DNA of 64,000 nt, taken from Niabella aurantiaca DSM 17617 (GTDB lineage: Bacteria > Bacteroidota > Bacteroidia > Chitinophagales > Chitinophagaceae). The position numbers and the translations under genes were made by a program. The notes below the pieces were generated by a model. It was not told where the DNA came from and ran no database searches. It worked only from the letters and a program-made list of their open reading frames with translations. The stretch is taken from assembly GCF_000374125.1 (NCBI RefSeq), contig NZ_KB893626.1:124001-188000 (forward strand), in the 5' to 3' direction. Shown in pieces: positions 1 to 22,453 of this stretch (positions are counted from its first letter, which is position 1; each line of letters begins with the position of its first letter).

Positions 1-1659
1 CGTATATTTTTTTATCTGACGCTCTCGATATTGCAAATTGTATTGTCGTGCAAAAGGCCGGTGGAAAGATTGCCGGGGCAGGAGGATGCTGTGGAGGTCC
101 TGAGCGGGGATGTGGATGGAGTGCATTTTTTAACAGACTTAACAAATGTCCGGCTTACGCCGACAATTCGCTTAAGTTTTACACAGGCGATAGATCCCGC
201 GTCCGTTTCTGCAATATCGCTGATGAAAGGAAAGACCCGGCATCCCGTCAGATACCTGATGGAGAAAGGGGATTCGGTTGTTATGATAGAACCCAGCATA
301 TCCTTGCTGCCTTTGGAAAAATATACGCTTGTAGTTGGAACACAGCTTCGGACAAGGTCTGGTGTGGGATCGGCGGCGGATTGGGTGAAGTATTTTGCAA
401 CAACAATTGATTCCTCTCGGAAGTTCCCTAAACTCTCTGAAGCGGAGTTGCTTACCAAAGTGCAACGGCAAACCTTCAACTACTTCCGTGATTTTGCACA
501 CCCGGTTTCCGGCATGATCCGTGAAGGATCAAAACATGCACCGGATATCGTAACCACGGGCGGAACAGGTTTTGGGGTCATGGCATTGCTGGTGGGCGTA
601 GAACGGGGATTTATCACAAAGGCAGAAGGCCTGCAGCGGATCACCAGGATTGTGGACTTTTTAAAGAACACTGCGCAAACTTTTCACGGAGCCTACCCGC
701 ATTGGCTCAATGGCAGCTCCGGCGAGGTGATCCCGTTTAGCACGAATGATGACGGGGCCGACCTTGTGGAAACGGCATTCCTTGTTCAGGGGCTCATCTG
801 TGCCCGGCAGTATTTTTCCGGGGCAGGGGAGGAGGCGCTGCTGAGAACAGCGATCAACGCAATAGCTGACAGCGTGGAGTGGAACTGGTTCCGGCAAAAC
901 AACCAGCAGGTATTGTACTGGCATTGGAGCGCAGATAAAGGCTGGGCTATGAATTTAAAGATACGGGGATGGAACGAATGCCTGATCACCTATGTCCTTG
1001 CGGCGGGCTCAAAAGATCATGCGGTTGCCAGGTCTGTTTACGATGAGGGCTGGGCCGGGAGCGGTGCCATGAAAAACGGTAAGTCTTTTTATAATATCCG
1101 CTTACCGCTGGGACCAGATTACGGCGGCCCGCTGTTCTTTGAGCATTATTCATTTATGGGGATCAACCCCAATGGCTTAAGCGATGCGTATACCAGTTAT
1201 GAAGAACAAGCAAAGAATCACAGTTTGATCAATTATCATTATTGCAGCACCAATCCCCAAAATTATTTTGGTTACAGTGATTCTGTGTGGGGACTGACCG
1301 CCAGCAATACAAAAAATGGGTATGTGGCCAGCTCACCCACCAATGACAGGGGGTTCATTGCTCCGACCGCAGCTATTTCATCCATGCCCTACACTCCTGC
1401 GGAGTCGATGGCCGCGCTTAAATTTTATTATTATGTGCTGGGAGATAAACTTTGGAAGGCGTATGGATTTGTAGATGCTTTTTCGCTGGATGTGCTAAAG
1501 AATGATGGCGCCTGGTTTGATGACGCTTTCCTGGCCATTGATCAGGGACCCATTATCGTGATGATCGAAAATTATCGTACAAAGCTGTTGTGGAACCTGT
1601 TCATGAGCGCGCCGGAGGTAAAAAGCGGGCTGACGAAGCTGGGATTTGCGGGGTTTTGA
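1..1659 (+). CDS. GH144 endo-beta-1,2-glucanase-type lipoprotein, 5' end cut by window
   Basis: Probable endo-beta-1,2-glucanase of glycoside hydrolase family 144 (Pfam Glycoamylase, (alpha/alpha)6 barrel). The frame is open to base 1. Its first codons read RIFFYLTLSILQIVLSC, a lipoprotein signal with the lipobox cysteine at bases 49-51, so only the start codon and perhaps a few residues are missing; the TTG at base 31 lies inside the signal peptide. A Big_5-like Ig domain (about bases 150-400, NVRLTPTIRLSFTQAIDP) precedes the catalytic domain (about 430-1650). Motifs shared with the two paralogues downstream are DDGADLVE (from base 748), VEWNWF, LYWHWS, YGGPLFFEHYSF and AIDQGPIIVMIENYRT. Most likely surface-exposed and first to cut the polymer. 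Family assignment is firm; beta-1,2 specificity is inferred from the characterised Chitinophaga member. Confidence 0.88.
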   Translation, partial: RIFFYLTLSILQIVLSCKRPVERLPGQEDAVEVLSGDVDGVHFLTDLTNVRLTPTIRLSFTQAIDPASVSAISLMKGKTRHPVRYLMEKGDSVVMIEPSISLLPLEKYTLVVGTQLRTRSGVGSAADWVKYFATTIDSSRKFPKLSEAELLTKVQRQTFNYFRDFAHPVSGMIREGSKHAPDIVTTGGTGFGVMALLVGVERGFITKAEGLQRITRIVDFLKNTAQTFHGAYPHWLNGSSGEVIPFSTNDDGADLVETAFLVQGLICARQYFSGAGEEALLRTAINAIADSVEWNWFRQNNQQVLYWHWSADKGWAMNLKIRGWNECLITYVLAAGSKDHAVARSVYDEGWAGSGAMKNGKSFYNIRLPLGPDYGGPLFFEHYSFMGINPNGLSDAYTSYEEQAKNHSLINYHYCSTNPQNYFGYSDSVWGLTASNTKNGYVASSPTNDRGFIAPTAAISSMPYTPAESMAALKFYYYVLGDKLWKAYGFVDAFSLDVLKNDGAWFDDAFLAIDQGPIIVMIENYRTKLLWNLFMSAPEVKSGLTKLGFAGF

Positions 1660-2023
1660 GTTCTTTGAAAGATCTATTTCCTGTAATGAAAGCGGCATTG
1701 AAGAATATGTAAGCGCTTATCTTTGACAGCGTATACAAGGCGGTGTTCCTGGTCAATTCTTCTGCTCCAAAAGCCGGTTCAATCAGCTTTTGCTCTTTAC
1801 CACGGTCATTTTTAAAGCTCTTTATGGCTCCATCGAGGCGATCTTTATTTGCTTTGGTGCTGGTCAGGTATTCCGTCTCTTCATAACTATTAAAATCGTC
1901 CGGCGATATCATTACCACGGTTTTACCACTGCCGGTCACGATCAGTGTATCATTATTATCATATACATTGTCGATACAGGATTTAAGATTTTTCCTGAAC
2001 TCAGAAATAGTTGCTACTAACAG
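1601..2023 (-). pseudogene. Orphan, decayed YefM/Phd-family antitoxin
   Basis: Read on the minus strand from CTG at 2023-2021, the frame gives LVATISEFRKNLKSCIDNVY, then TLIVTGSGKTVVMISPDDF, NSYEETEYL and a helix ending GAIKSFKNDRGKEQKLIEP. This is the whole DNA-binding part and neutralising start of a YefM antitoxin. Family members are about 85 residues; here the frame runs on for about 50 unrelated residues and ends inside the 3' end of the convergent GH144 gene. No YoeB, RelE or other toxin follows. The expected ATG appears as CTG; the first ATG in frame (1939) would delete the DNA-binding strand. It is therefore an antitoxin remnant, or a solitary regulator using CTG. A perfectly spaced operator lies just upstream. 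Homology is clear; activity is uncertain. Confidence 0.75.
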
Positions 2024-2024
2024 G

Positions 2025-2052
2025 GTACAATAATTTGTACAAAAAAGTGTAC
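2025..2052. promoter_or_regulatory. YefM-type operator: three GTAC cores at 12-base spacing
   Basis: GTAC occurs at 2025, 2037 and 2049, exactly 12 bases apart. The first two form the inverted repeat GTACAA-TAAT-TTGTAC. The second sits in the palindrome TTGTACAA. The third sits in AAAAAAGT-GT-ACTTTTTT (2041-2058). In E. coli the yefM-yoeB operator consists of adjacent palindromes with a TGTACA core about 12 bp centre to centre, so the layout fits. It lies directly upstream of the antitoxin remnant (minus strand) and 21 bases before the GH30 ATG (plus strand), so it could touch both promoters. Confidence 0.6.
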
Positions 2053-2072
2053 TTTTTTTATTAAAAACTGAA

Positions 2073-3509
2073 ATGAAAAAAAGGATTACCGGTTATTGTT
2101 GTATCCTGCTGGCACTTACTGGTTTAGGTGCGCAAGGCCATAAAAACGGAAACCCGAATGCCGCAAGTTCGTACCCGGAAAGCGGAACGGGCATCTGGCT
2201 CACCAGGGCGGATCGGACCGCTTTGCTGGAAAAACAAGCAGGAATGATGATCCGTTTTGGAACGGAACACAACGATTACCCGGACCTGGATATCGATGAT
2301 AACAAAAAATACCAGCAGGTAGAAGGGTTCGGATATACGTTAACCGGGGGCAGCGCACAGCTCATCAACCGGATGGATGCGGCTTCCAAAGCAGCGCTGC
2401 TGCATGAATTATTTGCAAAAGACGACCGGGCCATAGGGATCAGTTATCTCCGCATCAGCATGGGTGCATCCGACCTGGACGCATCGGTTTTCAGTTATAA
2501 TGATCTGCCGGAAAGGAAAACGGATATCAGCCAGGCAACGTTCAGCCTGGCACCGGATAAGGCAGCACTGATACCACTGCTGAAGAGGATCCTTGCAATC
2601 AACCCGTCCGTAAAGGTCCTTGCAACACCCTGGAGCGCGCCGGTATGGATGAAAGACAATCGTAAAAGTATAGGCGGCAGCCTGCAGCCCGGGTATTATA
2701 ATTCTTATGCCACGTATTTTGTAAAATACATCCGGGCCATGAAAGCGGAAGGGATCACCATTAATGCCATAACGCCACAGAATGAGCCCCTGCATCCCGG
2801 TAACAACCCAAGCATGTATATGACCGCCGAACAGCAGCGGGATTTCATAAAAAACAACCTGGGCCCTGCGTTCAAAGCAGCCGGGCTGTCCACAAAGATT
2901 ATTGTGTATGATCACAACCTGGACCGGCCGGACTATCCTGCTGTTATATACAATGACGCCGGTGCCGCCAAATATGTAGATGGGGCCGCCTTTCATCTCT
3001 ATGCCGGAGATGTGAACGCAATGGGGGCCCTGCACCATAGTTTTCCGGCGAAAAATCTCTATTTTACAGAACAGTGGACCGGTTCAAAAGGCAGCTTTGA
3101 CGGAGATCTGCAATGGCACGTCAAAAACGTCATCATCGGCACGATGCGCAACTGGAGCAGAACGGCATTGGAATGGAACCTGGCCAATGATCCGTCGTAT
3201 GGGCCGCATACGCCCGGGGGCTGTACCCAGTGTAAAGGAGCACTGACGATCGATGGTTCAGCTGTTTCCCGGAATGTTTCTTATTACATTATTGCACATG
3301 CGTCAAAATTTATTCCCGCCGGGTCCCTCAGGATCGGAAGCAAGGGTGCGGAGGGCTTGCATCATGTGGCTTTTTTACGGCCGGACGGTAAAAAAGCATT
3401 GATCGTTTTAAATGAAGCCGGTACATCTTATACCTTTAACGTCCGGTATAAAAATAAACGGGCGCCGGTTACCATAGCGGGGAAATCGGTAATAACGGCA
3501 GTGTGGTAA
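2073..3509 (+). CDS. GH30 family glucanase, secreted
   Basis: Glycoside hydrolase family 30, probably subfamily 3 (beta-1,6-glucanase) or a glucosylceramidase-like enzyme. A signal peptide (about residues 1-20, ending LTGLGAQG) has no lipobox, so the protein is probably periplasmic or released. The TIM barrel starts at VEGFGYTLTGGSA. E238 in PQNEP is the expected acid/base and E333 in YFTEQW the expected nucleophile. A beta-sandwich typical of the family closes the protein (about 395-478). Length (478 aa) is normal. It lies between GH144 genes. In a beta-1,2-glucan context a beta-1,6-glucanase would remove branches or mixed linkages; that role is inferred, and the linkage cannot be read from the sequence alone. 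Confidence 0.88.
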   Translation: MKKRITGYCCILLALTGLGAQGHKNGNPNAASSYPESGTGIWLTRADRTALLEKQAGMMIRFGTEHNDYPDLDIDDNKKYQQVEGFGYTLTGGSAQLINRMDAASKAALLHELFAKDDRAIGISYLRISMGASDLDASVFSYNDLPERKTDISQATFSLAPDKAALIPLLKRILAINPSVKVLATPWSAPVWMKDNRKSIGGSLQPGYYNSYATYFVKYIRAMKAEGITINAITPQNEPLHPGNNPSMYMTAEQQRDFIKNNLGPAFKAAGLSTKIIVYDHNLDRPDYPAVIYNDAGAAKYVDGAAFHLYAGDVNAMGALHHSFPAKNLYFTEQWTGSKGSFDGDLQWHVKNVIIGTMRNWSRTALEWNLANDPSYGPHTPGGCTQCKGALTIDGSAVSRNVSYYIIAHASKFIPAGSLRIGSKGAEGLHHVAFLRPDGKKALIVLNEAGTSYTFNVRYKNKRAPVTIAGKSVITAVW

Positions 3510-3537
3510 TATAATTTTTATAAGAATATTTGAAACC

Positions 3538-4899
3538 ATGCATATAACAAATTTTCGATTGCTGTTTTTAGCAACGATGATCGGTATCAGCAGTGCCCTG
3601 GTGGCACAGAAACCGGCATCCGTATCAAAATACGACATTCCTTACACCTTAAAGATCGATAAGGGTATCTCCGACTCTGCGCTGGTGGACCTTGTTCAGA
3701 AACAGACCCTGCGCTATTTCTGGGATTTTGCCCACCCGGTAAGTGGTATGGCAAGAGAGCGAAGCAACCAGTCGTTCAATTACGGGCAGGAGGTGGTCAC
3801 CACCGGCGGCACCGGTTTTGGAGTGATGGCCATTGTTGCGGGGGTGAACCGCGGATGGATCGGGCGGGATACGGCAGCGCGCTTCCTGTTAAAAATGGTG
3901 AAATGGTTGTCGAAGGCAGACTCCTACCACGGCGTGTTCCCGCACTGGTACAACGGAGCAACGGGCAAAACCATTCCCTTTAGCCGCAAGGACGACGGCG
4001 CTGATCTTGTAGAGTCCTCGTTCTTATTGCAGGGATTGCTGTGCGTGCGCCAGTATTTTAACCGGGACCTTCCCGTAGAAAGAGATCTGCGCAACCGTAT
4101 CAACGGACTGTGGAATGATGTGGAGTGGGACTGGTTTACCCGCGGCGGGCAGGACGTATTGTACTGGCATTGGAGCCCGAACAACGGCTGGGCCATGAAC
4201 TTTCCCTTAAGAGGGTTTAATGAATGCCTGATCACTTATGTACTGGCGGGCTCAGCAGAACGGTACCCGGTGAGCCGGAAAGTGTATGACCGCGGCTGGG
4301 CACAGAGCAACTTTTTTAAGAATGGCAGGAAGTTCTACAACTACACCCTTCCATTGGGTTTTGATTACGGCGGCCCGCTGTTCTTTTCGCATTATTCTTT
4401 CCTGGGTCTGAGCCCAAAAGGGCTAAAGGACCAGTATGCCGATTACTGGGTGCAAAACCAACATCACACGCTGATCAATTATGCCTATTGTGTCGACAAT
4501 CCGAAGGCATTTAAGGGATATGGGGAAAATTGCTGGGGACTTACGGCCAGCGATGATCCGGGGGGCTACGATGCGCATCAACCTTCGAATGATAACGGGA
4601 CCATCACGCCTACGGCAGCATTGTCTGCCTTTCCTTATACACCGGAACAATCGATGAAGGCCCTGCGGTATTTTTACGGAACACTGGGCGACAGGATATG
4701 GACGGAATACGGGTTCACCGATGCTTTTAACGAAACGAAGAACTGGTATGCAAAAAGTCACCTGGCCATTGACCAGGGCCCCATTGTGGTGATGATCGAA
4801 AATTACCGTACCGGCCTGCTCTGGAACCTTTTTATGAGCTGTCCCGAAGTGCAGAATGGACTGAAAAAACTGGGTTTTACAAGTACTTATCAGAAATAA
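3538..4899 (+). CDS. GH144 endo-beta-1,2-glucanase-type enzyme, secreted
   Basis: Second GH144 paralogue, 453 aa, consisting of a signal peptide (about residues 1-23, ending SSALVAQ, no lipobox) and one catalytic domain with no Ig module. Motifs are DDGADLVESSFL, VEWDWFTRGG, LYWHWSPNNGWAMN, YGGPLFFSHYSF and AIDQGPIVVMIENYRT (D412). It is expected in the periplasm, where it would shorten oligosaccharides imported through a SusCD pair. It follows GH30 by 28 bases and precedes the third paralogue by 2, so all three are probably one transcript. Length and architecture match the characterised single-domain Chitinophaga enzyme most closely. Confidence 0.88.
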   Translation: MHITNFRLLFLATMIGISSALVAQKPASVSKYDIPYTLKIDKGISDSALVDLVQKQTLRYFWDFAHPVSGMARERSNQSFNYGQEVVTTGGTGFGVMAIVAGVNRGWIGRDTAARFLLKMVKWLSKADSYHGVFPHWYNGATGKTIPFSRKDDGADLVESSFLLQGLLCVRQYFNRDLPVERDLRNRINGLWNDVEWDWFTRGGQDVLYWHWSPNNGWAMNFPLRGFNECLITYVLAGSAERYPVSRKVYDRGWAQSNFFKNGRKFYNYTLPLGFDYGGPLFFSHYSFLGLSPKGLKDQYADYWVQNQHHTLINYAYCVDNPKAFKGYGENCWGLTASDDPGGYDAHQPSNDNGTITPTAALSAFPYTPEQSMKALRYFYGTLGDRIWTEYGFTDAFNETKNWYAKSHLAIDQGPIVVMIENYRTGLLWNLFMSCPEVQNGLKKLGFTSTYQK

Positions 4900-4901
4900 G
4901 C

Positions 4902-6149
4902 ATGACAAAGCAAACGGCCCTTCCCTATTTAGAGGACGACGCATTGCTGGAGCTGGTGCAGCGGCAGACCTTTTCGTATTTCTGGGATTTTGCCCACTCC
5001 GGCAGCGGGCTGCCCCGGGAAAGGGATCACGAGCATTACAAGGATGTGATCACAACGGGCGGGTCCGGGTTTGGCGTGATGACCATTATCGTGGCGGTGG
5101 AGCGGAAATGGATCAGCCGGGCGCAGGCGATAATGCGTCTTTTGAAGATCGTTGCTTTTTTAGATAAGGCGGAGAACCATCGCGGGGCTTTTTCCCACTG
5201 GCTCAACGGGCGCACAGGAAAGACCATTCCGTTCGCAAAAAAGGATGATGGTGCCGACCTTGTTGAAACTGCCTTCCTTTTTCAGGGCTTGCTGACGGCA
5301 AGGCAATATTTTAACCGGCGGAATAAAGAGGAGCAGATCATCAGGGCCACCATTACCAGGCTCTGGCATCAGGTGGAGTGGAGCTGGTTCACGAGGGGCC
5401 GGGATGCCCTGTACTGGCATTGGAGCCCCAAACATCGCTGGGCAATGAATTTACGGATAGAAGGCTACAATGAGGCCCTGATCACCTATATACTGGCAGC
5501 AGCGGCGCCTAAACATTCGATCACTAAAAACGTGTATGAATGCGGTTGGGCCCGGAACGGTGCCATGAAGAACGGAAGATCATTTTATAAGACCCGGTTG
5601 CCTCTGGGACCGGATCTTGGCGGCCCTTTGTTTTTTGCCCATTACAGCTTTGTGGGGCTGGACCCAAACGGGTTGAGGGATGCGTTTGCGGATTACGGGA
5701 AACAAAATAAGGCCCAGGTAACGATTAATTACCGGTATTGTGCAGACAATCCCAGGGGGTATAAAAACTATGGAAAAAATTCCTGGGGGCTGTCAGCCTG
5801 TGATTATAAAAGAAGATACCGTGAGCATTCGCCGGTAAAAGACAACGGAACCATCTGCTGTGCAGCGGCTCTTGCCAGTATGCCCTATTTTCCCGAAGCA
5901 TCCCTGGATGCATTGCGGTATTTTTATGAGGTGCTGGGAAACAGGATCTGGGGCCGGTATGGGTTTTCGGAAAGCTATAATGAAACCCGCAAATGGTACG
6001 CTACATCCCATCTGGCCATTAACCAGGGCCCTATCATCCTGATGATCGAGAACTACCGGAGCGGCTTGTTGTGGAAATGGTTCATGAAGGATAAAGACGT
6101 ACGGCGTGGATTAAAAAAGCTGGGCTTTAAAAGCCCGCATTTAAAATAA
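4902..6149 (+). CDS. GH144-type enzyme without signal peptide
   Basis: Third GH144 paralogue, 415 aa. The protein starts MTKQTALPYLEDDALLELV and runs straight into the catalytic domain. No signal peptide exists, and the upstream frame holds no alternative ATG, so the protein is probably cytoplasmic unless it is exported another way. Motifs are kept (DDGADLVETAFL, VEWSWFTRG, LYWHWSPKHRWAMN, LGGPLFFAHYSF), but the aspartate of AIDQGP in the two paralogues is asparagine here (AINQGP, N374). It starts 2 bases after the previous stop. It may act on short oligosaccharides inside the cell or have changed activity. The C-terminal part is lysine/arginine-rich compared with the paralogues. Confidence 0.85.
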   Translation: MTKQTALPYLEDDALLELVQRQTFSYFWDFAHSGSGLPRERDHEHYKDVITTGGSGFGVMTIIVAVERKWISRAQAIMRLLKIVAFLDKAENHRGAFSHWLNGRTGKTIPFAKKDDGADLVETAFLFQGLLTARQYFNRRNKEEQIIRATITRLWHQVEWSWFTRGRDALYWHWSPKHRWAMNLRIEGYNEALITYILAAAAPKHSITKNVYECGWARNGAMKNGRSFYKTRLPLGPDLGGPLFFAHYSFVGLDPNGLRDAFADYGKQNKAQVTINYRYCADNPRGYKNYGKNSWGLSACDYKRRYREHSPVKDNGTICCAAALASMPYFPEASLDALRYFYEVLGNRIWGRYGFSESYNETRKWYATSHLAINQGPIILMIENYRSGLLWKWFMKDKDVRRGLKKLGFKSPHLK

Positions 6150-6167
6150 ACGATAGAAAAGGATTTG

Positions 6168-6427
6168 ATCAGCGAATCAGCGGCAAATGAAGAACGTATC
6201 GATGGATTATTTTGTCTGAATAATAAGCCGCAGATGCCCGCCTGATTTATTCGGGCAGGCACTGATTAAGCCGTAGCAAGAAAATTAAATCAGCGAATCA
6301 GCGGCAAACTGAATACCCGCTGCAGACGTGCAGGTTAGCTGGGTACAAAAAAGAAGAATCGGCGATGGGATAAAGGAGTTGCAGTGCTACCTTTGATGTT
6401 CGGCTATGAAAAACAATTTTTGAAAAT
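6168..6427. repeat. Direct repeat copy 1, upstream of the GxxExxY gene
   Basis: A ~240-base repeat occurs on both sides of the GxxExxY gene. Its first 70 bases (6168-6237) are identical to 6883-6952. The rest is close to identical except for a ~25-base palindromic insertion unique to this copy. Within the repeat the phrase AATCAGCGAATCAGCGGCAA occurs twice (near 6168 and 6288). The end holds TACCTTTG (6388-6395), a perfect TAnnTTTG -7 element, so the repeat includes a promoter-like segment in front of the gene. Confidence 0.85.
6235..6261. repeat. 27-base imperfect palindrome inserted in repeat copy 1
   Basis: TGCCCGCCTGA-TTTAT-TCGGGCAGGCA can fold into a hairpin with two mismatched or wobble positions in the arms. 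The matching place in copy 2 (near 6950) reads only gatgcgcagatta, so the palindrome was gained in copy 1 or lost from copy 2. It looks like a small dispersed palindromic element nested in a larger repeat. Confidence 0.55.
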
Positions 6428-6441
6428 TAAAGCTAATCGTT

Positions 6442-6843
6442 ATGAAAAAGAATTTTGATGAAAAGGAGTATCCCTGGCAGTCTGAAAGCTATGTACTGAT
6501 TGGTATTGCAATGGAAATTCATCGGATATTGGGTAAAGGCTTTCTGGAAATTGTGTACAAGGATGCGTTTGAATATGAATTAAATAATCGGGGGATCTTT
6601 TATGAACGGGAAAAAGAGTATAGTATTTCATATAAGAACATCATATTGCCTCATCGGTTTTGTGCTGATTTTGTAATTGAAAACAAGATTATATTGGAGT
6701 TGAAATCAAGAAAAGGAATTGTGGAAGATCACTACGCGCAAGTGATCAATTATCTTGCTGTATCAAAGCTGCGATTGGGGCTACTGATCAATTTTCATGA
6801 AAAGTCGCTGGAATACAAACGGATCATATCGTCCGAGTCCTAA
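6442..6843 (+). CDS. GxxExxY protein (PD-(D/E)XK-3 family)
   Basis: 133 aa member of the GxxExxY family. The naming motif is G33-FL-E36-IV-Y39. A PD-(D/E)XK nuclease-like core follows: D76 in CADFVIE, then E86-L-K88, then Q100 and NYL. Biochemical function is unknown for the family, which is often present in many dispersed copies per genome. No signal peptide or membrane segment. AT content is higher than in neighbouring genes. The stop codon TAA is the first triplet of the phrase TAAGCCGCARATGC that belongs to the repeat family. The gene and repeats interrupt an otherwise continuous run of carbohydrate genes, which suggests insertion. Nuclease activity is a structural inference only. Confidence 0.85.
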   Translation: MKKNFDEKEYPWQSESYVLIGIAMEIHRILGKGFLEIVYKDAFEYELNNRGIFYEREKEYSISYKNIILPHRFCADFVIENKIILELKSRKGIVEDHYAQVINYLAVSKLRLGLLINFHEKSLEYKRIISSES

Positions 6844-6882
6844 GCCGCAAATGCAGAAATTAGGCCGTGGAAAGAAAATTAA

Positions 6883-7117
6883 ATCAGCGAATCAGCGGCA
6901 AATGAAGAACGTATCGATGGATTATTTTGTCTGAATAATAAGCCGCAGATGCGCAGATTATGCCGTAGAAAGAAAATCAAATCAGCGAATCAGCGGCAAG
7001 CTGAATACCACCGCAGGCGTGCAGGTTAGCTGGTTGCAAAAAAGAAGGACAGGCTATGGGATAAAGGAGTTGCGGTGTTACCTTTGATGTTCAGCTATGA
7101 AAAGTATTTTTTGAAAA
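6883..7117. repeat. Direct repeat copy 2, downstream of the GxxExxY gene
   Basis: Second copy of the ~240-base repeat, with the same order of elements: AATCAGCGAATCAGCGGCAA phrases near 6883 and 6982, GTGCAGGTTAGCTGG, GGGATAAAGGAGTTGC, and TACCTTTG at 7079-7086. It ends 14 bases before the SGNH hydrolase start, so it supplies the 5' region and probable -7 element of that gene. Copy 1 supplies the same parts to the GxxExxY gene. A further partial unit (6841-6882) starts at the GxxExxY stop codon. Confidence 0.85.
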
Positions 7118-7131
7118 AATAAAATAGAAAC

Positions 7132-7788
7132 ATGAAACGGATTTGTTTGCTTTTTGTATGGTTATCACTATCAGTAATGGGTGTTCAGGCGCAGACGCCA
7201 CGGTTTTACAAAGACATCCAGCACTTTAAAGAACTGGACCGGCAGCAACCGCCTCCAAAGAAGGCCATACTGTTTATCGGTAGCTCTTCCTTTACCAAAT
7301 GGAAAGATGTTGGCGAATATTTTCCCGGTTATACGATCATCAATCGCGGTTTTGGCGGATCAACGCTGAAGGATCTGATCTATTATTTCAATGACCTGGT
7401 GCCGGTTTATCGGCCACGGCAGATCGTGATCTATTGCGGCGAGAACGACCTGGCTAATAATGCAACGCCTGCAGACAGCGCGGTAAGCCGTTTTAAACAC
7501 CTGCTCAGCCTCATACGGGGGTACAATAAAAAAGTGCCGGTGGCTTTTATTTCAATAAAACCAAGCCCGGTTCGTATAAAGTACCTGCCCAAGATGAAGG
7601 AAGCGAATGCCACTATAAAAGCATATATCGCAAAGCAGAAAAATACGCGCTACATTGATGTATTCCCGGCGATGCTGGGTGAAAACGGCCGTCCAATGCC
7701 TTCCATCTTCTTGAGCGACAGTCTGCATATGAACGCCGGCGGCTACGAGATCTGGCAGAAGATCATGCGCCCCTACCTGAAAAAATAA
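7132..7788 (+). CDS. Secreted SGNH/GDSL hydrolase
   Basis: SGNH-fold esterase, 218 aa, with signal peptide (residues 1-21, ending VQAQ). Block I is FIGSSSFTKW (nucleophile probably S52). Block II is INRGFGGSTL, block III is CGENDLANN, and block V is D196-SL-H199. In this family such periplasmic enzymes remove acetyl or other short acyl groups from sugars. Placed 6 bases before the acetyltransferase and in the same run as GH144, GH30 and GH3, it most likely deacylates a substituted glucan. The acyl group (acetyl, succinyl) cannot be told from the sequence. Confidence 0.85.
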   Translation: MKRICLLFVWLSLSVMGVQAQTPRFYKDIQHFKELDRQQPPPKKAILFIGSSSFTKWKDVGEYFPGYTIINRGFGGSTLKDLIYYFNDLVPVYRPRQIVIYCGENDLANNATPADSAVSRFKHLLSLIRGYNKKVPVAFISIKPSPVRIKYLPKMKEANATIKAYIAKQKNTRYIDVFPAMLGENGRPMPSIFLSDSLHMNAGGYEIWQKIMRPYLKK

Positions 7789-7794
7789 TGCAGT

Positions 7795-8316
7795 ATGACC
7801 CTTATGCAATATTCGATCGTAAAAGCCGAAGTAAAGGACCTGAAAGCACTTCAGGCATTTGCCCGGCACACATTTGCCGATACCTATGAGCAGTATAATA
7901 CAGCGGAAAATATGCGGTACTATCATGAAGTGGTGTTCTCGGATACCGGCTTTGAGAACGACCTGCTGGGAACGGCATCTGAATATTACATTGCCCGGGA
8001 AGATGAAAAGATCGCAGGTTACATGAAGCTGAATATAGATGCGGACAAAGATGGGCCCGGAGGTATGGAGCTGGAACGGATCTATGTTTCCAAAGAGCAA
8101 AAAGGGCGCGGAGTTGGGAAGGCGTTACTGCAAAAGGCGGCAGAGGCAGGCAAAGCATACGGAAAGCGATACCTGTGGCTGGGCGTTTGGGAACGGAATA
8201 ACGCCGCGCTTGGTTTTTACCAGAAACAGGGGTTTGAGCCGTTCGGTACCCATATGTTTATGTTGGGAACAGATGCGCAGCAGGATATTTTAATGAAAAA
8301 AAGTCTGAGGCCATGA
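7795..8316 (+). CDS. GNAT family N-acetyltransferase
   Basis: 173 aa GNAT-fold acetyltransferase. The acetyl-CoA binding motif A is LERIYVSKEQKGRGVGKALL (Q/R-x-x-G-x-G/A form), followed by NAALGFYQKQGFEPFG in motif B. It resembles PaiA/spermine-type and general small-molecule acetyltransferases. The start could also be the ATG 9 bases further on. It ends with a 4-base ATGA overlap with the GH3 gene, so the two are translationally coupled. Cytoplasmic; the acceptor substrate is unknown. Its operon position does not by itself prove a role in glycan use. Confidence 0.82.
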   Translation: MTLMQYSIVKAEVKDLKALQAFARHTFADTYEQYNTAENMRYYHEVVFSDTGFENDLLGTASEYYIAREDEKIAGYMKLNIDADKDGPGGMELERIYVSKEQKGRGVGKALLQKAAEAGKAYGKRYLWLGVWERNNAALGFYQKQGFEPFGTHMFMLGTDAQQDILMKKSLRP

Positions 8317-10874: not shown

Positions 10875-10956
10875 GGAGAGCGAAAAGTGCTGTGTGGAAT
10901 GCGGGTTCATATCTGTTTATATTTACAATAACAGGAATTGTTGATTGCTGAATACG

Positions 10957-13695: not shown

Positions 13696-13718
13696 GCACT
13701 GCACAAAAACGGATTAAA

Positions 13719-15227: not shown

Positions 15228-15250
15228 GGATAAGAACGATTGTAACGCAT

Positions 15251-16186
15251 ATGAATCAGAACAGGAGAAGTTTTTTAAAAACATCGTCTGCAGCGGCGAT
15301 GGCAGGAATGTTTTTGCCGGCAGCGGCTTCCATCACCAAACCCGCCGCACTCAGCATGCCTGCAAAGCCCGGCTTCCGGCTGATCGTGATGGCCACAAAC
15401 TGGGGGTTTAAAGGATCAACGGATGCCTTTTGCGCGGCCGCAAAAAAAGAAGGGTATGACGGCGTCGAAGTCTGGTGGCCGGCAGAAACTGCACAGCAAA
15501 AAGAATTGTTTGAGGCATTAAAGAAACATGAGCTCCGGGTAGGGTTTCTTTGTGGCGGCTACCAGCCCGGTTTTAAAGAGCACCTGGAGTATTTTAAGGG
15601 TGCGGCAAAGGCTGCGGCAACAAACAGCGCCCAGCCACCGGTGTACATCAATTGCCATTCCGGAAGAGACCATTTCAGCTATGAGGAAAATAAAGCCTTT
15701 ATCGATTTTACCGGTTCACTTGCTGCACAAACAGGGGTCACCATCTGTCACGAAACCCATCGCTCCCGCATGTTATTTGCCGCGCATGTGGCTCGGCAGT
15801 TCATTGAAAAGAACCCTTCCTTAAAACTGACCCTGGATATTTCGCACTGGTGCAACGTGCACGAGAGCATGCTGGACGATCAGGAGGAAACTGTTGCCCG
15901 GGCCCTGGAGCGGACGTCACATATCCACGCGCGTATCGGTCATCCGGAAGGCCCCCAGGTAAACGATCCGCGCGCACCGGAATGGGCCGCGGTGGTAAAA
16001 CAACATTTCGACTGGTGGGATGTGGTTGCAGAACGGAAACGGAACCAGGGGGAAGTAATGACCGTGCTCACAGAGTTTGGCCCGCCTACATATATGCCGG
16101 TATTGCCTTATACCCAGCAGCCCCTGGCCGATCAATGGGCCATAAACGTGCATATGATGAAAACACTCAGACAAAGGTATCAATAA
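15251..16186 (+). CDS. Sugar phosphate isomerase/epimerase-like TIM barrel, Tat signal
   Basis: 311 aa protein of the AP-endonuclease-2/xylose-isomerase-like family. A Tat signal is visible (NRRSFLKTSSAAAMAG, then an alanine-rich core). Likely metal ligands are the glutamate in CHETHRSR, aspartate and histidine in LDISHWC, histidines in HIHARIGHPEG and the glutamate in LTEFGPP. The fold resembles hydroxypyruvate isomerase. Because it is exported, its substrate must be a free sugar or keto-sugar in the periplasm, not a sugar phosphate. It lies in the same cluster as the DUF1501 and cytochrome proteins, which suggests isomerisation of an oxidised sugar. That is inference. Confidence 0.83.
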   Translation: MNQNRRSFLKTSSAAAMAGMFLPAAASITKPAALSMPAKPGFRLIVMATNWGFKGSTDAFCAAAKKEGYDGVEVWWPAETAQQKELFEALKKHELRVGFLCGGYQPGFKEHLEYFKGAAKAAATNSAQPPVYINCHSGRDHFSYEENKAFIDFTGSLAAQTGVTICHETHRSRMLFAAHVARQFIEKNPSLKLTLDISHWCNVHESMLDDQEETVARALERTSHIHARIGHPEGPQVNDPRAPEWAAVVKQHFDWWDVVAERKRNQGEVMTVLTEFGPPTYMPVLPYTQQPLADQWAINVHMMKTLRQRYQ

Positions 16187-16192
16187 CAACAT

Positions 16193-17599
16193 ATGACCAT
16201 TCTCGCTATTGTGGAAGTTTTAGGAAGATTTCACCCTGTATTGGTACACCTGCCTATCGGCATATTGCTGGTTGCCTGTTTGTTCCAGCTGTTTGTAAAA
16301 CGGTTCCCGCTACTGCGGCCTTCGGTTCCGGTACTCCTTTTTTGGGGAATGCTGGCGGCTGTTGCATCCTGTATTACCGGGTATCTGCTGTCGTTAAGCG
16401 GCGACTACGATGCCGTGCTTACCAGGCGGCATCAATGGTTGGGGATCATTACAGCGGCGGCGGCTTTCCTGTTTTATATGCTGCACCGGCTTTCGTTAGC
16501 TTCCAGATATGCCAATCCAATGGCGGCTGGGGTGATTGCGTTAATCATGGTTACCGGGCACCTGGGCGGCTCGCTGACACATGGTACCGATTATTTAACA
16601 GCAGGGATGGATGATGCCGGTGCAGACCAGACCATGAAACCGATCCCCAACATCCAGGAGGCGGTGCTGTACACGGCGGTGGTGCAACCGATCCTGCAGC
16701 GAAAATGTTATAGTTGCCATGGAAGCAGCAAACAAAAAGGAAAGCTGCGTCTGGATGAAGAAAATTATATCCTGAAGGGCGGGAAGGATGGAAAGGCGAT
16801 CGAGAGTGGCAAGCCAGATGAAAGTGCAATGATCAAACGGTTATTGCTGCCACTGAATGACGATGATCATATGCCTCCCAAGGAAAAACCCCAGCTCACC
16901 CCCAACGAAGTGGCGGTCCTGAACTGGTGGGTAAGTACCGGCAACAGCTTTACAAAAAAAGTAAAAGAATTACCGCAAACCGATAAGATCAAACCCGTAC
17001 TGGCTGCGCTGCAGTCGGGCAGCGGCGGCAATGTGGCAAAAAGCGCAGATGTGCCGGATGCTGCAGTAAGCGCCGCAAGCGAAGACGCCGTAAACAAGCT
17101 GAAAGATGCCGGTGTTATGGTGGTTCCCGTTGCGCATGAAAAAAATTACCTGTCGGTAAACTTTGTTACCGCCGGCAATCAGGCACGGCAGCTGGTAAAA
17201 TTGCTGGAGCCCTTAAAAAAACAATTGGTGTGGCTCAGGCTCGATGGCAGCGATATAGACGACGCCGCTCTGGCAGCGATTGCAAAGCTGGAAGGCCTTA
17301 CAAGACTCTACCTAAGCAACACCGCGATAACCGATGCCGGTCTGCAACACCTGAAGCCGCTGAAACAACTGCAGGTACTGAACCTGGTAGGAACGAAGGT
17401 TACGGATAAAGGCGTTGCGGAGTTAAAAACAATGCCGGCGCTGCGGGCCATTTATCTTTACAAAACCAATATAAACAGGAACGCCTGGGTACAGCTAAAA
17501 CGGGCCTTTCCCAAAACGATACTGGATTCAGGCGGCTATAACGTTCCTACCCTTGTAACGGATACTACATTGGTAACAGCAGATCAGCAGAAGAAATAG
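16193..17599 (+). CDS. DUF2231 membrane / PSCyt1 cytochrome / leucine-rich-repeat protein
   Basis: 468 aa three-part protein. Four membrane helices form a DUF2231 domain (about residues 1-135) that begins with the conserved RFHPVLVHLPIG. A Planctomycete-type cytochrome domain follows with haem site C172-YS-C175-H176, then a linker. The C-terminus has leucine-rich repeats (LTRLYLSNTAITDAGLQHL, LQVLNLVGTKVTDKGVAEL). The membrane part could pass electrons from periplasmic cytochrome domains towards the quinone pool. The repeats probably bind a partner. It starts 6 bases after the isomerase stop and closes the cluster. Architecture is clear; the electron route is inferred. Confidence 0.83.
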   Translation: MTILAIVEVLGRFHPVLVHLPIGILLVACLFQLFVKRFPLLRPSVPVLLFWGMLAAVASCITGYLLSLSGDYDAVLTRRHQWLGIITAAAAFLFYMLHRLSLASRYANPMAAGVIALIMVTGHLGGSLTHGTDYLTAGMDDAGADQTMKPIPNIQEAVLYTAVVQPILQRKCYSCHGSSKQKGKLRLDEENYILKGGKDGKAIESGKPDESAMIKRLLLPLNDDDHMPPKEKPQLTPNEVAVLNWWVSTGNSFTKKVKELPQTDKIKPVLAALQSGSGGNVAKSADVPDAAVSAASEDAVNKLKDAGVMVVPVAHEKNYLSVNFVTAGNQARQLVKLLEPLKKQLVWLRLDGSDIDDAALAAIAKLEGLTRLYLSNTAITDAGLQHLKPLKQLQVLNLVGTKVTDKGVAELKTMPALRAIYLYKTNINRNAWVQLKRAFPKTILDSGGYNVPTLVTDTTLVTADQQKK

Positions 17600-18013: not shown

Positions 18014-18027
18014 ATTGGGTAAAAAAA

Positions 18028-18615: not shown

Positions 18616-18626
18616 CCTGCAAATAT

Positions 18627-18646
18627 AATCGAATAATCATTCGATT
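18627..18646. promoter_or_regulatory. Probable TetR operator, copy 2 (perfect palindrome)
   Basis: AATCGAAT-AATC-ATTCGATT has two perfect 8-base arms around 4 bases. It sits in the divergent space between the TetR gene (minus strand) and the serine hydrolase gene (plus strand, start 18711), so it could control both. The same left arm recurs upstream of the VOC gene. Confidence 0.6.
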
Positions 18647-18710
18647 AAAAATAAAAATGAGATACAAGGAAAACTGTAAATCGTCATAATTTTTGTAGCT
18701 TAGAAGCCAA

Positions 18711-19994
18711 ATGCTGATAAAGAGAAGGATTCGCTTGTTGGTGCTGGGCATAGCCCTGCAGTTGGCTGCCCAGGCACAGTTGATCACAGCGGTTCCCGCG
18801 AAGGGATCCCCTGACGGTTTTTCGAACGAACGGCTGCAGTATATCGACCATGTTATTCAGGATTATGTGCACCGCAAATGGATCAAAGGCGCAACAGCCC
18901 TGATTGTACACAAAGGCGTAATCGTTTATAATAAAGCCTTTGGATACAGCAATGCCCAAACCCGGGTGCCTTTAAGAACCGATGCTATTTTCCGGATCGC
19001 ATCTCAGACAAAGGCCATTACCAGTGTGGCAGTCATGATGCTTTTTGAGGAGGGGAAATTTTTACTGGATGATCCCATTTCCAGGTTCATTCCTTCTTTT
19101 GCAGACCCGAAAGTGCTGGACAGGTTCAATGCGGCAGATTCTTCTTATACTACGGTTCCTGCAAAAAGAGGCATCACCATCCGGGATCTGCTGACGCATA
19201 CTTCGGGATTGGATTATGCACAGATCGGATCGCCGGCAATGAAAGCAATCTATGCAAAAGCCGGCATCCCCGCGGGGTTTGTGACCCATCCCCAAAAGCT
19301 GGCCGATGCCATTAACAAGCTGGGAACGCTGCCCCTGGTACATCAGCCGGGAGAGCGGTTCACTTACGGCCTGAACACCGATGTGCTGGGCCGCCTGGTG
19401 GAGATCGTTTCGGGCATGAGCCTGGATGAATTTTTCCGCAGACGCATTTTTGAACCGCTGAATATGAAGGATACCTATTTTCATTTGCCGGATGCAAAAA
19501 GACCGCGCCTGGTAAGCGTCGATACGGAGGATAAAGGAACAAAAGCCCTCATCCCCTGGTCTGACACCACGTTCCCCGGAATAACGGTTGACTATCCGGT
19601 AAACAACAACGGGTATTACTCGGGGGGCGCCGGCCTCGTTTCTACCACGGCAGATTACGCGGCCTTTTTACAGATGATCGTAAACAAGGGAGTCTTTAAG
19701 GGAAAACGCTTCCTGTCCCGGCATTCTGTTGAAATGATGACCCAAAACCAGATCGGTGACCTTTCCCTGGGTAACAATAAGTTTGGTTTGGGCTTTGAGA
19801 TCACCACAGATAAAGGCTTCTTAAAGCTGGGCCAGTCCGCCGGCAGTTTTGCCTGGGGCGGTTTCTTTGGTACCACTTACTGGGGCGATCCCCGAGAGGA
19901 AGTGGTAGCGTTGCTGTTTGTGCAGCAGTGGCCATTTTCACATGGTGAATTGGGCGATAAGTTTAAAGCCCTGGTGTATCAGGCATTAAAGTAA
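18711..19994 (+). CDS. Serine hydrolase, class C beta-lactamase family
   Basis: 427 aa exported serine hydrolase of the beta-lactamase/transpeptidase-like family, signal peptide about residues 1-22 (ending LAAQAQ). The catalytic tetrad motif is S98-QT-K101, followed by the tyrosine motif YGLNTDVLG (Y219). The third motif lies in the region GGFFGTTYWGDP instead of a clear KTG. Family members include EstB-like esterases, D-aminopeptidases and AmpC; the EstB/penicillin-binding-like group is the best match. Divergent from the TetR gene across a palindromic operator. Not likely to be a true drug-resistance beta-lactamase, but this was not tested. Confidence 0.85.
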   Translation: MLIKRRIRLLVLGIALQLAAQAQLITAVPAKGSPDGFSNERLQYIDHVIQDYVHRKWIKGATALIVHKGVIVYNKAFGYSNAQTRVPLRTDAIFRIASQTKAITSVAVMMLFEEGKFLLDDPISRFIPSFADPKVLDRFNAADSSYTTVPAKRGITIRDLLTHTSGLDYAQIGSPAMKAIYAKAGIPAGFVTHPQKLADAINKLGTLPLVHQPGERFTYGLNTDVLGRLVEIVSGMSLDEFFRRRIFEPLNMKDTYFHLPDAKRPRLVSVDTEDKGTKALIPWSDTTFPGITVDYPVNNNGYYSGGAGLVSTTADYAAFLQMIVNKGVFKGKRFLSRHSVEMMTQNQIGDLSLGNNKFGLGFEITTDKGFLKLGQSAGSFAWGGFFGTTYWGDPREEVVALLFVQQWPFSHGELGDKFKALVYQALK

Positions 19995-20021
19995 AATCAA
20001 ATACCATATCTTTTACAAAAC

Positions 20022-21560
20022 ATGAAACAATTTTTATTTCCTGCTGCGTTGCTGGCATTCCTGCTGGGCGGATGCAGCGCCCCGGCGAAGACACAACGTG
20101 CAAAAGAGGGGATAACCTTTGCGTCGAATCCCATCGTAGCGCACAGGGGAGCGTTTAAGAAAAACCGGCTTCCCGAAAATTCCATCGCCTCGCTGAAGCA
20201 TGCGATCGCGTTGAACTGTACGGGGTCTGAGTTTGATGTACAAATGACCGCAGACGATTCACTGGTCATCAACCATGATCCGCATTATAATAAACTACCG
20301 ATTGAGAAGACCCCTTATGCCGAGCTGATCAAAACACCTTTGTCGAACGGTGAGCAATTACCCACGCTGAGAACCTATCTCCTGGAAGGAATGAAGAACA
20401 ACCGGTCAACCCGGCTGGTACTGGAAATAAAACCTTCGGTGATCAGTAAGGAAAGGGGGCAGCTGATCGCACAACGGGCGGTGGCCCTCGTACATGAGCT
20501 GGGCGCGGCTCGGATGACAGTGTACATCAGTTTCGATTATGATATTTGCAAAAAAGTGAAGGAGCTGGACCCCAAAACGCATGTACAGTACCTGAATGGC
20601 GATAAATCGCCGGAAGTGGTCAAAGCAGGAGGACTGGACGGCGTGGATTATCATTACTCCGTTTTTCAAAAGCACCCGGAATGGATCGCTCAGGCGAAGC
20701 AGCAACATATTGCACTGAATGCCTGGACTGTGAATACGGCAGCAGAAATGGACTGGCTGCTGGCAAACGGCTTTGAGTTCATTACGACCAATGAACCGGA
20801 ACTGCTGACAGAGCGCATCAAAAAAACATCGGCTGCAAAAGGATGGAAGCTGGTATGGAGCGACGAATTTAACAACAACGGGTTGCCGGATGACCACAAA
20901 TGGGGATACGACGTGGGGGGTAGCGGCTGGGGGAATCGTGAGCTGCAGTATTATACAAAGGCCGATAGCAATAATGCACTGGTTAAAGACGGAACGCTCC
21001 GGATCATTGCACATAAGGAAAAACGGGAGCAAAACACCTACACTTCCGCCCGGCTGATTACAAAAGGAAAGGGCGACTGGTTATACGGCAGGGTGGAGGT
21101 AAGCGCTAAATTACCGGCAGGCAGGGGCGTATGGCCGGCAATATGGATGTTGCCCACCGATTGGAAATATGGCGGCTGGCCCGCAAGCGGTGAAATGGAT
21201 ATTATGGAGAATGTGGGCTATAATCCCGATACGGTGTTCAGCAGTGTGCATACCAAATCATTTAACCATGTAATCGGGACGCAAAAAACAAAGGGTTTCT
21301 TTTTAAAGGATGCAGGAACAGCTTTTCATCTGTATGCTGTTGAATGGAATAAGGACCAGATCGATTTTTTTGTAGACGACCGGTTATTCTTTTCATTTAA
21401 GAATACCGGAAAGGGATTTGAAGAATGGCCCTTTGATCAGAAATTTCATTTACTGCTGAATATGGCTATGGGTGGCAATTGGGGCGGCAAAATGGGGGTG
21501 GATGAAAAACTGGACAGGGCCGTAATGGAAGTGGATTATGTGCGGGTGTTTCAAAAATGA
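20022..21560 (+). CDS. Glycerophosphodiester phosphodiesterase-GH16 fusion lipoprotein
   Basis: 512 aa two-enzyme lipoprotein (lipobox LLGGC). The N-terminal domain (about residues 33-268) is a GDPD TIM barrel with H41-R42 in AHRGAF, E70-F-D72 and H85 in INHDP, all key residues present. The C-terminal domain (about 275-512) is a GH16 beta-jelly-roll of laminarinase type: LVWSDEFNNNGLPDDHKW, then the catalytic motif E391-MD-IM-E396 and MAMGGNWGG. No stop or linker gene separates them. One domain releases phosphoglycerol, the other cuts internal beta-glucosidic bonds (usually beta-1,3). The fusion implies a beta-glucan decorated with glycerophosphate. An alternative target would be a teichoic-acid-like polymer. 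Confidence 0.9.
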   Translation: MKQFLFPAALLAFLLGGCSAPAKTQRAKEGITFASNPIVAHRGAFKKNRLPENSIASLKHAIALNCTGSEFDVQMTADDSLVINHDPHYNKLPIEKTPYAELIKTPLSNGEQLPTLRTYLLEGMKNNRSTRLVLEIKPSVISKERGQLIAQRAVALVHELGAARMTVYISFDYDICKKVKELDPKTHVQYLNGDKSPEVVKAGGLDGVDYHYSVFQKHPEWIAQAKQQHIALNAWTVNTAAEMDWLLANGFEFITTNEPELLTERIKKTSAAKGWKLVWSDEFNNNGLPDDHKWGYDVGGSGWGNRELQYYTKADSNNALVKDGTLRIIAHKEKREQNTYTSARLITKGKGDWLYGRVEVSAKLPAGRGVWPAIWMLPTDWKYGGWPASGEMDIMENVGYNPDTVFSSVHTKSFNHVIGTQKTKGFFLKDAGTAFHLYAVEWNKDQIDFFVDDRLFFSFKNTGKGFEEWPFDQKFHLLLNMAMGGNWGGKMGVDEKLDRAVMEVDYVRVFQK

Positions 21561-21643
21561 CACACCCAATACTCCGTTTTAAACCGGGTGGCTGCTCATG
21601 AGTCGCTATGACCGGAAAAGGGTTAACAATCTTAAACGCACAA

Positions 21644-22453
21644 ATGAAAAAAATACTGTTTGTACTGGCAGCAACTTTATTATGGACAACAGCAGATGCC
21701 CAGGATCATGCATTGTTTCAGAAATTCAGGTTCATACAGAACGGAGATACACTGCCTTACCGGCTGCTGCTGCCGGAACATTATGATCCGCAGAAAAAAT
21801 ACCCTCTCGTATTGTTCCTTCATGGCCGTGGCGAAAGCGGCAGCGACAACGAAGCACAATTATTGCACGGGGCTGCGATCTTCCTTAAAGAAGAGAACCG
21901 GAAACAATTTCCCGCAATTGTTGTCTTTCCGCAAAATGCAGCAAAATATTACTGGAGTAATGTTCAGACCGTTGCAGACTCCAGTGGTAAACGGAGTTTT
22001 TACTTTATAGCGGGTGGAGAGCCGTCTCCCAGCATGCAGCTGGTGATGGCGCTTATGCGTAACCTGGACCGGCAGTATAAAATAAAAAAAGATCAGGTCT
22101 ATGTAATGGGACTGAGCATGGGCGGAATGGGTACTTTTGAAATTGTCAACCGCATGCCCCATACTTTTGCTGCGGCCATTCCCATCTGCGGCGGCGCGGA
22201 TCCCGGTATTGCCGGTAACCTGAAAAACACGGCGTGGTGGGTGTTTCATGGTGGTAAGGATGAAGTGGTATCGCCGGAGTATTCCCGGAAAATGGTACGC
22301 GCCATGAAAGCGAATGGAGTGCCGGTACAATTCACTGTTTATCCCGGGGCCGGCCATAACAGCTGGGATGCAGCTTTTGCAGAGCCCGGATTGCTCGGGT
22401 GGCTTTTTGCTCATAAAAGAAAGAATAATTTTAGCAAAACCTCCAACAATTGA
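21644..22453 (+). CDS. Alpha/beta hydrolase, probable secreted carbohydrate esterase
   Basis: 269 aa alpha/beta hydrolase similar to CE1/prolyl-oligopeptidase-like esterases. The start was set at the ATG that gives a signal peptide (MKKILFVLAATLLWTTADAQ); an upstream ATG in frame would add 12 residues before it. The oxyanion region is LVLFLHGRGESGSDN, the nucleophile S158 lies in GLSMGGMG, and the catalytic histidine is in GAGHNSWDAAF. It follows the GDPD-GH16 gene by 83 bases and may remove ester-linked groups from the same polysaccharide. Acetyl, feruloyl and succinyl esters are all possible. Confidence 0.82.
   Translation: MKKILFVLAATLLWTTADAQDHALFQKFRFIQNGDTLPYRLLLPEHYDPQKKYPLVLFLHGRGESGSDNEAQLLHGAAIFLKEENRKQFPAIVVFPQNAAKYYWSNVQTVADSSGKRSFYFIAGGEPSPSMQLVMALMRNLDRQYKIKKDQVYVMGLSMGGMGTFEIVNRMPHTFAAAIPICGGADPGIAGNLKNTAWWVFHGGKDEVVSPEYSRKMVRAMKANGVPVQFTVYPGAGHNSWDAAFAEPGLLGWLFAHKRKNNFSKTSNN

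Follow-up and report, generated by a model that had tools for sequence, protein, structure and literature searches.

A SusCD-linked GH144 locus of Niabella aurantiaca, probably for branched bacterial glucans, and a neighboring GDPD-GH16 unit

PULs built around GH144 are abundant in Bacteroidetes and have been assigned to beta-1,2-glucans (PMC6499787). The accessible part of that source makes no mention of GH30, GDPD, or osmoregulated periplasmic glucans (OPGs) as targets of these PULs; the links of GH144 with GH30, GDPD, and an esterase type called Est2 that are reported below were counted here. CpSGL from Chitinophaga pinensis is a characterized GH144 enzyme, in which mutation of D135, D139, E142, or E211 is harmful, as stated in the accessible part of PMC12102758. 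As for the glucans, periplasmic glucans are made by most Gram-negative bacteria, and among OPGs, beta-1,3 bonds are found in group 4 but not in groups 1 to 3 (PMC10514313, accessible part). The open-access literature yielded no paper on loci eating decorated periplasmic glucans and nothing pertinent on GH144 together with glycerophospho- terms.

The stretch analyzed here, called the window, is 64 kb of Niabella aurantiaca DSM 17617. An earlier note had described a run of three GH144 genes with GH30, SGNH, and GH3 genes, followed at a distance by a GDPD-GH16 fusion and a second esterase; Pfam recovered every gene that it named. It had also proposed looking for a SusCD pair just upstream of base 1, and such a pair is present there, accompanied by genes for an ECF sigma factor, FecR, and a LamG lipoprotein. 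The first gene run and its upstream half comprise the following features.

About -7.8 kb to -0.1 kb (outside the window), + strand: ECF sigma, FecR, SusC, SusD, and LamG lipoprotein genes, upstream of GH144 #1
1 to 1659, + strand: GH144 #1, putative lipoprotein (Pfam PF10091, the GH144 domain)
2073 to 3509, + strand: GH30, beta-1,6-glucanase-like (Pfam; best solved relative 5ngk)
3538 to 4899, + strand: GH144 #2, endo-beta-1,2-glucanase-like, signal peptide by eye (Pfam PF10091; solved relatives 4gl3 and 5gzh; key residues)
4902 to 6149, + strand: GH144 #3 (Pfam PF10091; N-terminus; key residues)
6442 to 6843, + strand: PDDEXK_3 gene, probably outside the pathway (Pfam)
7132 to 7788, + strand: SGNH/GDSL hydrolase, putative secreted esterase (Pfam; solved relatives)
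7795 to 8316, + strand: GNAT acetyltransferase (Pfam)
8313 to 10640, + strand: GH3, beta-glucosidase-like (Pfam; solved relatives 3u48 and 5xxl)

The window opens inside GH144 #1, a gene that begins 21 bases 5' of it. Because the ECF-FecR-SusC-SusD-LamG set stands immediately 5' on the same strand, the gene run is no chance grouping, and bases 1 to 10640 form the enzyme half of a PUL in which the SusC/SusD pair adjoins GH144, as in the described beta-1,2-glucan PULs. SusD of the subtype encoded just upstream of GH144 #1 is carried by 42 of 394 Chitinophagaceae genomes, and GH144 was present in 31 of the 38 loci with this subtype that were read. The PDDEXK_3 and GNAT genes are members of the run that were missing from the earlier note. 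Two relatives (L009 and L010) carry GH43 inside the locus, and their gap corresponding to the PDDEXK_3 region is longer.

The likeness to CpSGL and the GH144 relatives 5gzh and 4gl3 extends over the whole domain, and equivalents of all four mutation-tested residues are kept in all three GH144 proteins of the window, which, judged by sequence, are close to characterized endo-beta-1,2-glucanases. In contrast to CpSGL, the window holds three paralogues; at the N-terminus of GH144 #3, no signal peptide was seen. The putative specificities of GH30 and GH3 are taken from their nearest solved relatives. For GH30, the relative is 5ngk, a GH30_3 beta-1,6-glucanase, which makes this protein the PUL's candidate for cutting beta-1,6 branches. 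Of 45 matches to this kind of GH30, 17, from 10 genera, are no more than 15 kb away from GH144; this count and the other by-eye counts below were made from coordinates and repeated once. Among 80 GH144 loci, GH3 is present in 57 and SGNH in 32. The commonest extra enzyme of these loci is GH43 (42 of 80), which is absent from the window's GH144 locus and for which OPGs offer no obvious target bond; its frequency elsewhere and absence here suggest that part of the natural substrate is unexplained by reading the locus as a beta-1,2-glucan PUL.

The explanation that we favor, and hold to be reasonably probable, is that a single SusCD PUL for bacterial beta-1,2-glucans spans the DNA between about -7.8 kb and 10640, while the S12-GDPD-GH16-Est2 genes farther on are a second unit with its own substrate. 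The target of the first PUL is probably branched bacterial glucans. The ECF-sigma/FecR pair would control the PUL, and the surface SusC-SusD-LamG set would bind and import glucan chains. GH144 #1 and #2, both bearing a lipoprotein or secretion signal, would cleave the beta-1,2 backbone, GH30 would trim beta-1,6 branches, GH3 would complete oligosaccharide breakdown, and the SGNH enzyme may strip acyl groups. The likely food would be a beta-1,6-branched, OPG-type glucan shed by Gram-negative neighbors. We also considered that the PUL recycles a cyclic beta-1,2-glucan of the bacterium's own. The genome does encode a 2895-aa protein (G000:C2:85051-93738) with GH94 and PF10091 domains that matches the Agrobacterium tumefaciens cyclic glucan synthase NdvB (8rf0, E 0; also 8wy1). 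However, SusCD, surface lipoproteins, and regulation by ECF-FecR typify uptake from outside the cell, and an unbranched cyclic beta-1,2-glucan offers GH30 no target, which leaves recycling very improbable.

From the end of GH3, 9.4 kb pass before the GDPD-GH16 gene begins. By Pfam, the genes in this gap are PSD1/PSCyt, DUF1501, AP_endonuc_2, PSCyt-LRR, and the S12 hydrolase, with a glyoxalase gene and a TetR gene on the opposite strand. We rejected the cytochrome cluster (PSD1-DUF1501-AP_endonuc_2-PSCyt-LRR) as a PUL member, since a by-eye count from coordinates placed it near GH144 in only 1 of 31 PSD1 matches among 99 relatives other than Niabella. The two loci L139 (genome G049) and L073 are places where the cluster adjoins GH144. 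The second unit and the gene next to it read as follows.

18711 to 19994, + strand: hydrolase of family S12 (beta-lactamase fold), at the head of the second unit (Pfam)
20022 to 21560, + strand: GDPD-GH16 fusion, putative lipoprotein (Pfam; solved full-length relative 7ww4/7wwc)
21608 to 22453, + strand: Est2, alpha/beta-hydrolase esterase (Pfam; solved relatives)
22926 to 24026, + strand: metallophosphoesterase, possibly linked to the second unit (Pfam)

Only 27 bases separate the end of S12 from the start of the fusion, whose GDPD and GH16 domains share one 512-aa open reading frame. The solved relative 7ww4/7wwc, deposited as a beta-1,3(4)-glucanase in a record that names no function for its GDPD half, shares both domains and their order and aligns over residues 34 to 512 of the window's fusion; a literature search on 7ww4, or on GDPD joined to GH16, returned nothing fitting. 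By its closest solved relatives, the GH16 half is laminarinase-like. Since beta-1,3 bonds belong to group 4 OPGs and not to groups 1 to 3, the statement in the earlier note that the enzymes fit almost every bond goes too far for any single molecule.

Could both units nonetheless work as a single OPG-scavenging system? In it, phosphoglycerol would be removed by GDPD, succinyl groups by SGNH, S12, and Est2, and branches by GH30, while GH144 and GH3 would degrade the backbone. Part of the evidence points that way. Of 46 stand-alone GDPD cases within Chitinophagaceae, 9, from 6 genera, have GH144 no more than 9 kb away; outside the family, the figure is 5 of 14, all in one genus and in the order SusC-SusD-GH144-GH3-GDPD-GH43. 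On the GDPD tree, the GH144-linked state must have changed 4 times or more. Est2-type esterases recur in GH144 loci (5 of 29 matches by eye from coordinates, with six matches beside Niabella fusions set aside), and Est2 lies near stand-alone GDPD in four GH144 PULs (G134, G137, G309, and G339) and in G262, which pulls the second unit toward the one-system view. Moreover, all eight Niabella genomes in which the fusion is complete have it on the same strand as GH144, 14 to 28 kb away (for G005 and G006, the fusion census covered 10-kb stretches, and this distance comes from separate coordinates).

Against this, the check proposed in the earlier note, for GDPD-GH16 beside GH144 in other genomes, came out negative: fusions with GH144 within 9 kb number 0 of 13 in Chitinophagaceae and 0 of 6 outside, or 0 of 19 in total. 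The spacing in Niabella can be explained by shared synteny, and we therefore rejected fusion-GH144 linkage as functional evidence. An unrelated PSD1 block separates the two units in 7 of 8 Niabella genomes, and the window's fusion, 13.9 kb from GH144, is in a separate unit, outside the GH144 PUL. The laminarinase-like GH16 would be without a target in group 1 to 3 OPGs. Furthermore, the phosphoglycerol of OPGs is of the sn-1 kind, whereas the studied GlpQ-type enzymes prefer sn-3. A single system for both units is, in our judgment, on the unlikely side.

Statistically, stand-alone and fused GDPD near GH144 do not differ significantly within Chitinophagaceae (9/46 versus 0/13, Fisher p 0.18); once the phylum sample is added, they do (14/60 versus 0/19, p 0.017), and GDPD also exceeds GH16-only genes (9/46 versus 1/35, p 0.037), the latter being a by-eye count from coordinates in a different genome set with Niabella left out. 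All these p values are only indicative, because the rows share descent. A parallel by-eye count in Niabella placed 2 of 9 GH16-only matches within 9 kb of GH144 (G001 and G009). Contig ends and stretch limits may hide GH144 links; G220, G262, and G192, scored as unlinked, have SGNH (and, in G220 and G262, GH3 and GH43) and lack GH144 in the stretch read. The OPG-scavenging idea thus stands in part. The SusCD-GH144 PUL, GH30 beside GH144 in 10 genera, and the presence of GDPD of the same family and of esterases in other GH144 PULs speak for it, whereas the fusion of the window's GDPD to GH16, its missing linkage to GH144, and the lack of the common GH43 here do not. Comparison with relatives suggests that some GH144-type loci also remove phosphate decorations from beta-1,2-glucans.

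What the second unit acts on can be approached through its relatives. Of 13 Chitinophagaceae fusions, 6 have GH30 within 9 kb; these GH30 genes are of two kinds, presumably the GH30_1 and GH30_3 subfamilies, and neither these nor any other GH30 kind searched for turned up in the stretches examined around the six fusions from outside the family. The six GH30-adjoining cases resemble the GH30_1/GH30_3 PULs of Bacteroidetes (PMC6499787, accessible part); unlike those PULs, the window's fusion lacks both SusCD and GH30 for 9 kb around it. Fusions with both alongside occur in G011 and G034, and G011 carries a whole SusCD-GH30-S12-GH30-GDPD-GH16 PUL at the place corresponding to the window's second unit. 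Bases 18711 to 22453 would then most likely descend from a beta-1,3/1,6-glucan-type PUL and act on a phosphodiester-bearing glucan of their own, with possible help to the first PUL.

It is quite possible, if short of an even chance, that the second unit and its SusCD-bearing relatives target fungal or algal beta-1,3/1,6-glucan, with GDPD cutting other, unrelated phosphodiesters, for example those of lipid head groups or GPI remnants. The closeness of GH16 to laminarinases, the GH30 genes beside fusions, and a SusC-SusD-GDPD-Exo_endo_phos locus in which no glycosidase was found (L263) are consistent with such a target; yet GDPD also sits inside GH144 PULs, where fungal glucan makes little sense, and Est2 is common to the second unit and GH144 PULs. 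This account of the second unit is compatible with our preferred explanation of the first.

A wider reading, which we put forward as speculative and rather doubtful, is that Bacteroidota possess loci specialized for periplasmic glucans from other Gram-negative bacteria, with a secreted GDPD as the marker that removes phosphoglycerol or phosphocholine. One type, for beta-1,2-glucans, would combine GDPD with GH144, GH3, and an esterase, and in some loci also with GH30; in the other, for cyclic beta-1,3/1,6-glucans, GDPD would be joined or fused to GH16 and frequently accompanied by GH30. Niabella would then carry a GH144 PUL near a remnant or reduced GH16 type. The recurrent joining of GDPD and GH144 would offer a concrete marker for loci eating decorated periplasmic glucans, and it singles out GDPD, Est2, and GH43 as candidate enzymes.

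Finally, the metallophosphoesterase gene downstream of Est2 was not seen in the stretch read beside the G011 fusion, and it is kept beside the fusion in G005, G006, G008, G015, G014, and G010.

The gene run at the start of the window is a real, well-formed polysaccharide utilization locus (PUL) for beta-1,2-glucans, of a known kind, in a genome of 5.93 Mb. Pfam verified every gene named in the earlier note; the run and a second unit comprise the following:

1-1659, GH144 #1
2073-3509, GH30
3538-4899, GH144 #2
4902-6149, GH144 #3
7132-7788, SGNH (putative esterase)
8313-10640, GH3
18711-19994, S12 hydrolase
20022-21560, GDPD-GH16 fusion
21608-22453, Est2, an alpha/beta-hydrolase esterase

GH144 #1 starts 21 bases 5' of the window edge, and 5' of it on the + strand lie genes for an ECF sigma factor, FecR, SusC, SusD, and a LamG-domain lipoprotein; the SusCD pair that the earlier note suggested looking for just upstream of base 1 is thus present. 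The passages of PMC6499787 on GH144 PULs describe them as abundant and attribute them to beta-1,2-glucans, and the core of the finding is already known in kind. A PDDEXK_3 gene at 6442-6843 also occurs in four GH144 loci (L011, L044, L058, and L082).

GH144 #2 is 90-91% identical to its nearest named relatives (Niabella drilacis, a Niabella MAG, and N. pedocola) and matches over its full length the solved structures 4gl3, 5gzh (an endo-beta-1,2-glucanase), and 5z06 (BDI_3064). Mutation at D135, D139, E142, or E211 harms CpSGL, the GH144 enzyme of Chitinophaga pinensis, according to the relevant passages of PMC12102758. These residues are present in all three window GH144 proteins; over a 252-row alignment, three of these positions never vary, and the remaining one is D in 247 rows. 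Judged by eye, GH144 #1 is a putative lipoprotein and GH144 #2 a putative secreted protein. As no signal peptide can be seen at the start of GH144 #3 (ATG at 4902), a cytoplasmic GH144 is possible; its counterparts lack a signal peptide in three of the four Niabella relatives read, the start being unclear in the other one. The GH30 best matches 5ngk, which we take to be a Bacteroides GH30_3 beta-1,6-glucanase, and the GH3 best matches 3u48, with 5xxl (presumably BT_3567) also close.

Across 80 named loci around GH144, many cut by contig ends, at least two GH144 genes were found in 63, GH3 in 57, SusC in 55, SusD in 54, SGNH in 32, GH30 of the window type (at least 50% identity) in 23, and Est2 in 12. 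Exo_endo_phos (5/80), GH16 (4/80), and GDPD (2/80; L040 and L067) were far less frequent. Among 99 relatives, 17 of 45 GH30 matches, from 10 genera, lay within 15 kb of GH144. The transporter genes seem, from sequence comparison, to have been exchanged: between the window and its closest relatives GH144b is 87-93% identical, SusC only 41-52%, and the nearest match of the SusC-SusD-LamG set upstream of the window (L006:13965-19867) is in genome G001 (SusD 83%). The window's SusD subtype is present in 42 of 394 Chitinophagaceae genomes; of 38 mapped loci carrying it, L174 and L175 included, 31 had GH144 in the stretch and 8 had GDPD.

The earlier note proposed that the locus scavenges phosphoglycerol-substituted beta-1,2-glucans, either osmoregulated periplasmic glucans (OPGs) or cyclic glucans, and looked to linkage of GDPD-GH16 with GH144 in other genomes. 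Of the 394 family genomes, 59 carry a close homolog of the GDPD, and all 59 loci were read, 9 kb to each side where contig and stretch allowed. Thirteen genes were fused to GH16 and 46 stood alone. The linkage sought was not seen, with GH144 within 9 kb of 0/13 family fusions and near 0/6 fusions outside the family among 228 genomes sampled from the phylum. That sample held 20 GDPD matches outside the family, the other 14 being stand-alone, of which 5, all from genus g138, lay 2.7-3.2 kb from GH144. In the family, 9 of the 46 stand-alone genes, from six genera, had GH144 on their own strand no more than 9 kb away (genomes G134, G137, G141, G145, G199, G271, G309, G314, and G339). Two others follow a SusC-SusD-LamG set without GH144 (G037 and G038, the latter with kdp genes next), four adjoin GH3 and/or SGNH only (G192, G220, G262, and G436), and the remaining 31 showed no link to GH144, SusC-SusD-LamG, GH3, or SGNH. 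Mapped onto the GDPD tree, linkage to GH144 requires seven changes, and well-supported branches force at least four of these; fusion to GH16 requires three, and it may have a single origin. The five g138 loci, L251-L255, each contain a single run, SusC-SusD-GH144-GH3-GDPD-GH43, with an esterase between GH144 and GH3 in four of the five.

Residues 34-512 of the window's GDPD-GH16 protein align with 7ww4/7wwc, deposited as a beta-1,3(4)-glucanase, and laminarinases are the next closest to its GH16 half. The gene is separated by 27 bases from the S12 hydrolase and by 47 from Est2, and we read this unit as the remainder of a SusCD-type fusion PUL. Eight Niabella genomes, including the window's, have a complete fusion that shares the strand of GH144 and is 14-28 kb away from it, and in seven of them a PSD1-DUF1501-AP_endonuc_2-PSCyt block intervenes; at that place G011 instead carries a whole ECF-FecR-SusC-SusD-GH30-S12-GH30-GDPD-GH16 PUL. 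GH30 is within 9 kb of 6 of the 13 family fusions and alongside 5 of the 7 outside Niabella, with SusCD too in G034. Outside the family, L256-L258 carry SusC, SusD or a SusD-like gene, GDPD-GH16, and then Exo_endo_phos. The neighborhoods of Est2 are a sign against reading the unit as such a remainder: Est2 is near GDPD in G134, G137, G309, and G339, all with GH144, and in G262, and 5 of 29 Est2 matches lie within 15 kb of GH144 when those beside Niabella fusions are left out.

L263:4014-10540 (SusC-SusD-GDPD-Exo_endo_phos, with no glycosidase found in it) and L256-L258 are putative phosphodiester-directed SusCD loci. In the window, the PSD1/PSCyt-DUF1501-AP_endonuc_2-PSCyt-LRR block spans 10945-17599; the same four genes adjoin GH144 in L139 (G049) and L073, and elsewhere the block is mostly without a GH144 link.

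The relatives lend the OPG proposal support that is real, though indirect, and the GDPD-GH16 fusion on which the earlier note leaned is the weakest part of its argument. The sections of PMC11842490 and PMC10514313 on OPG structure describe group 1 OPGs as linear beta-1,2-linked chains that bear beta-1,6 branches and can be substituted with succinate, phosphoglycerol, and phosphoethanolamine, and group 4 OPGs as cyclic beta-1,3/beta-1,6-glucans. GH144, GH30, and GH3 fit group 1, GH16 with GH30 would fit group 4, and GDPD beside GH144 and GH16 alike fits a phosphodiester decoration. The commonest extra enzyme of the GH144 loci is GH43 (42/80, with queries carrying GH43 and F5/8C domains), which matches neither chemistry, a caution that the natural substrate may include some further component. 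It is absent from window positions 1-10640; GH43 with F5/8C domains occurs in L251-L255, L067, L204, and L101. Between GH144 and SGNH, L101:13379-18978 (G011) encodes a GFO/IDH oxidoreductase, a glucosamine-isomerase/6PGL-like protein, a GMC oxidoreductase, and GH43, and G008 has open reading frames of similar size at the matching position.
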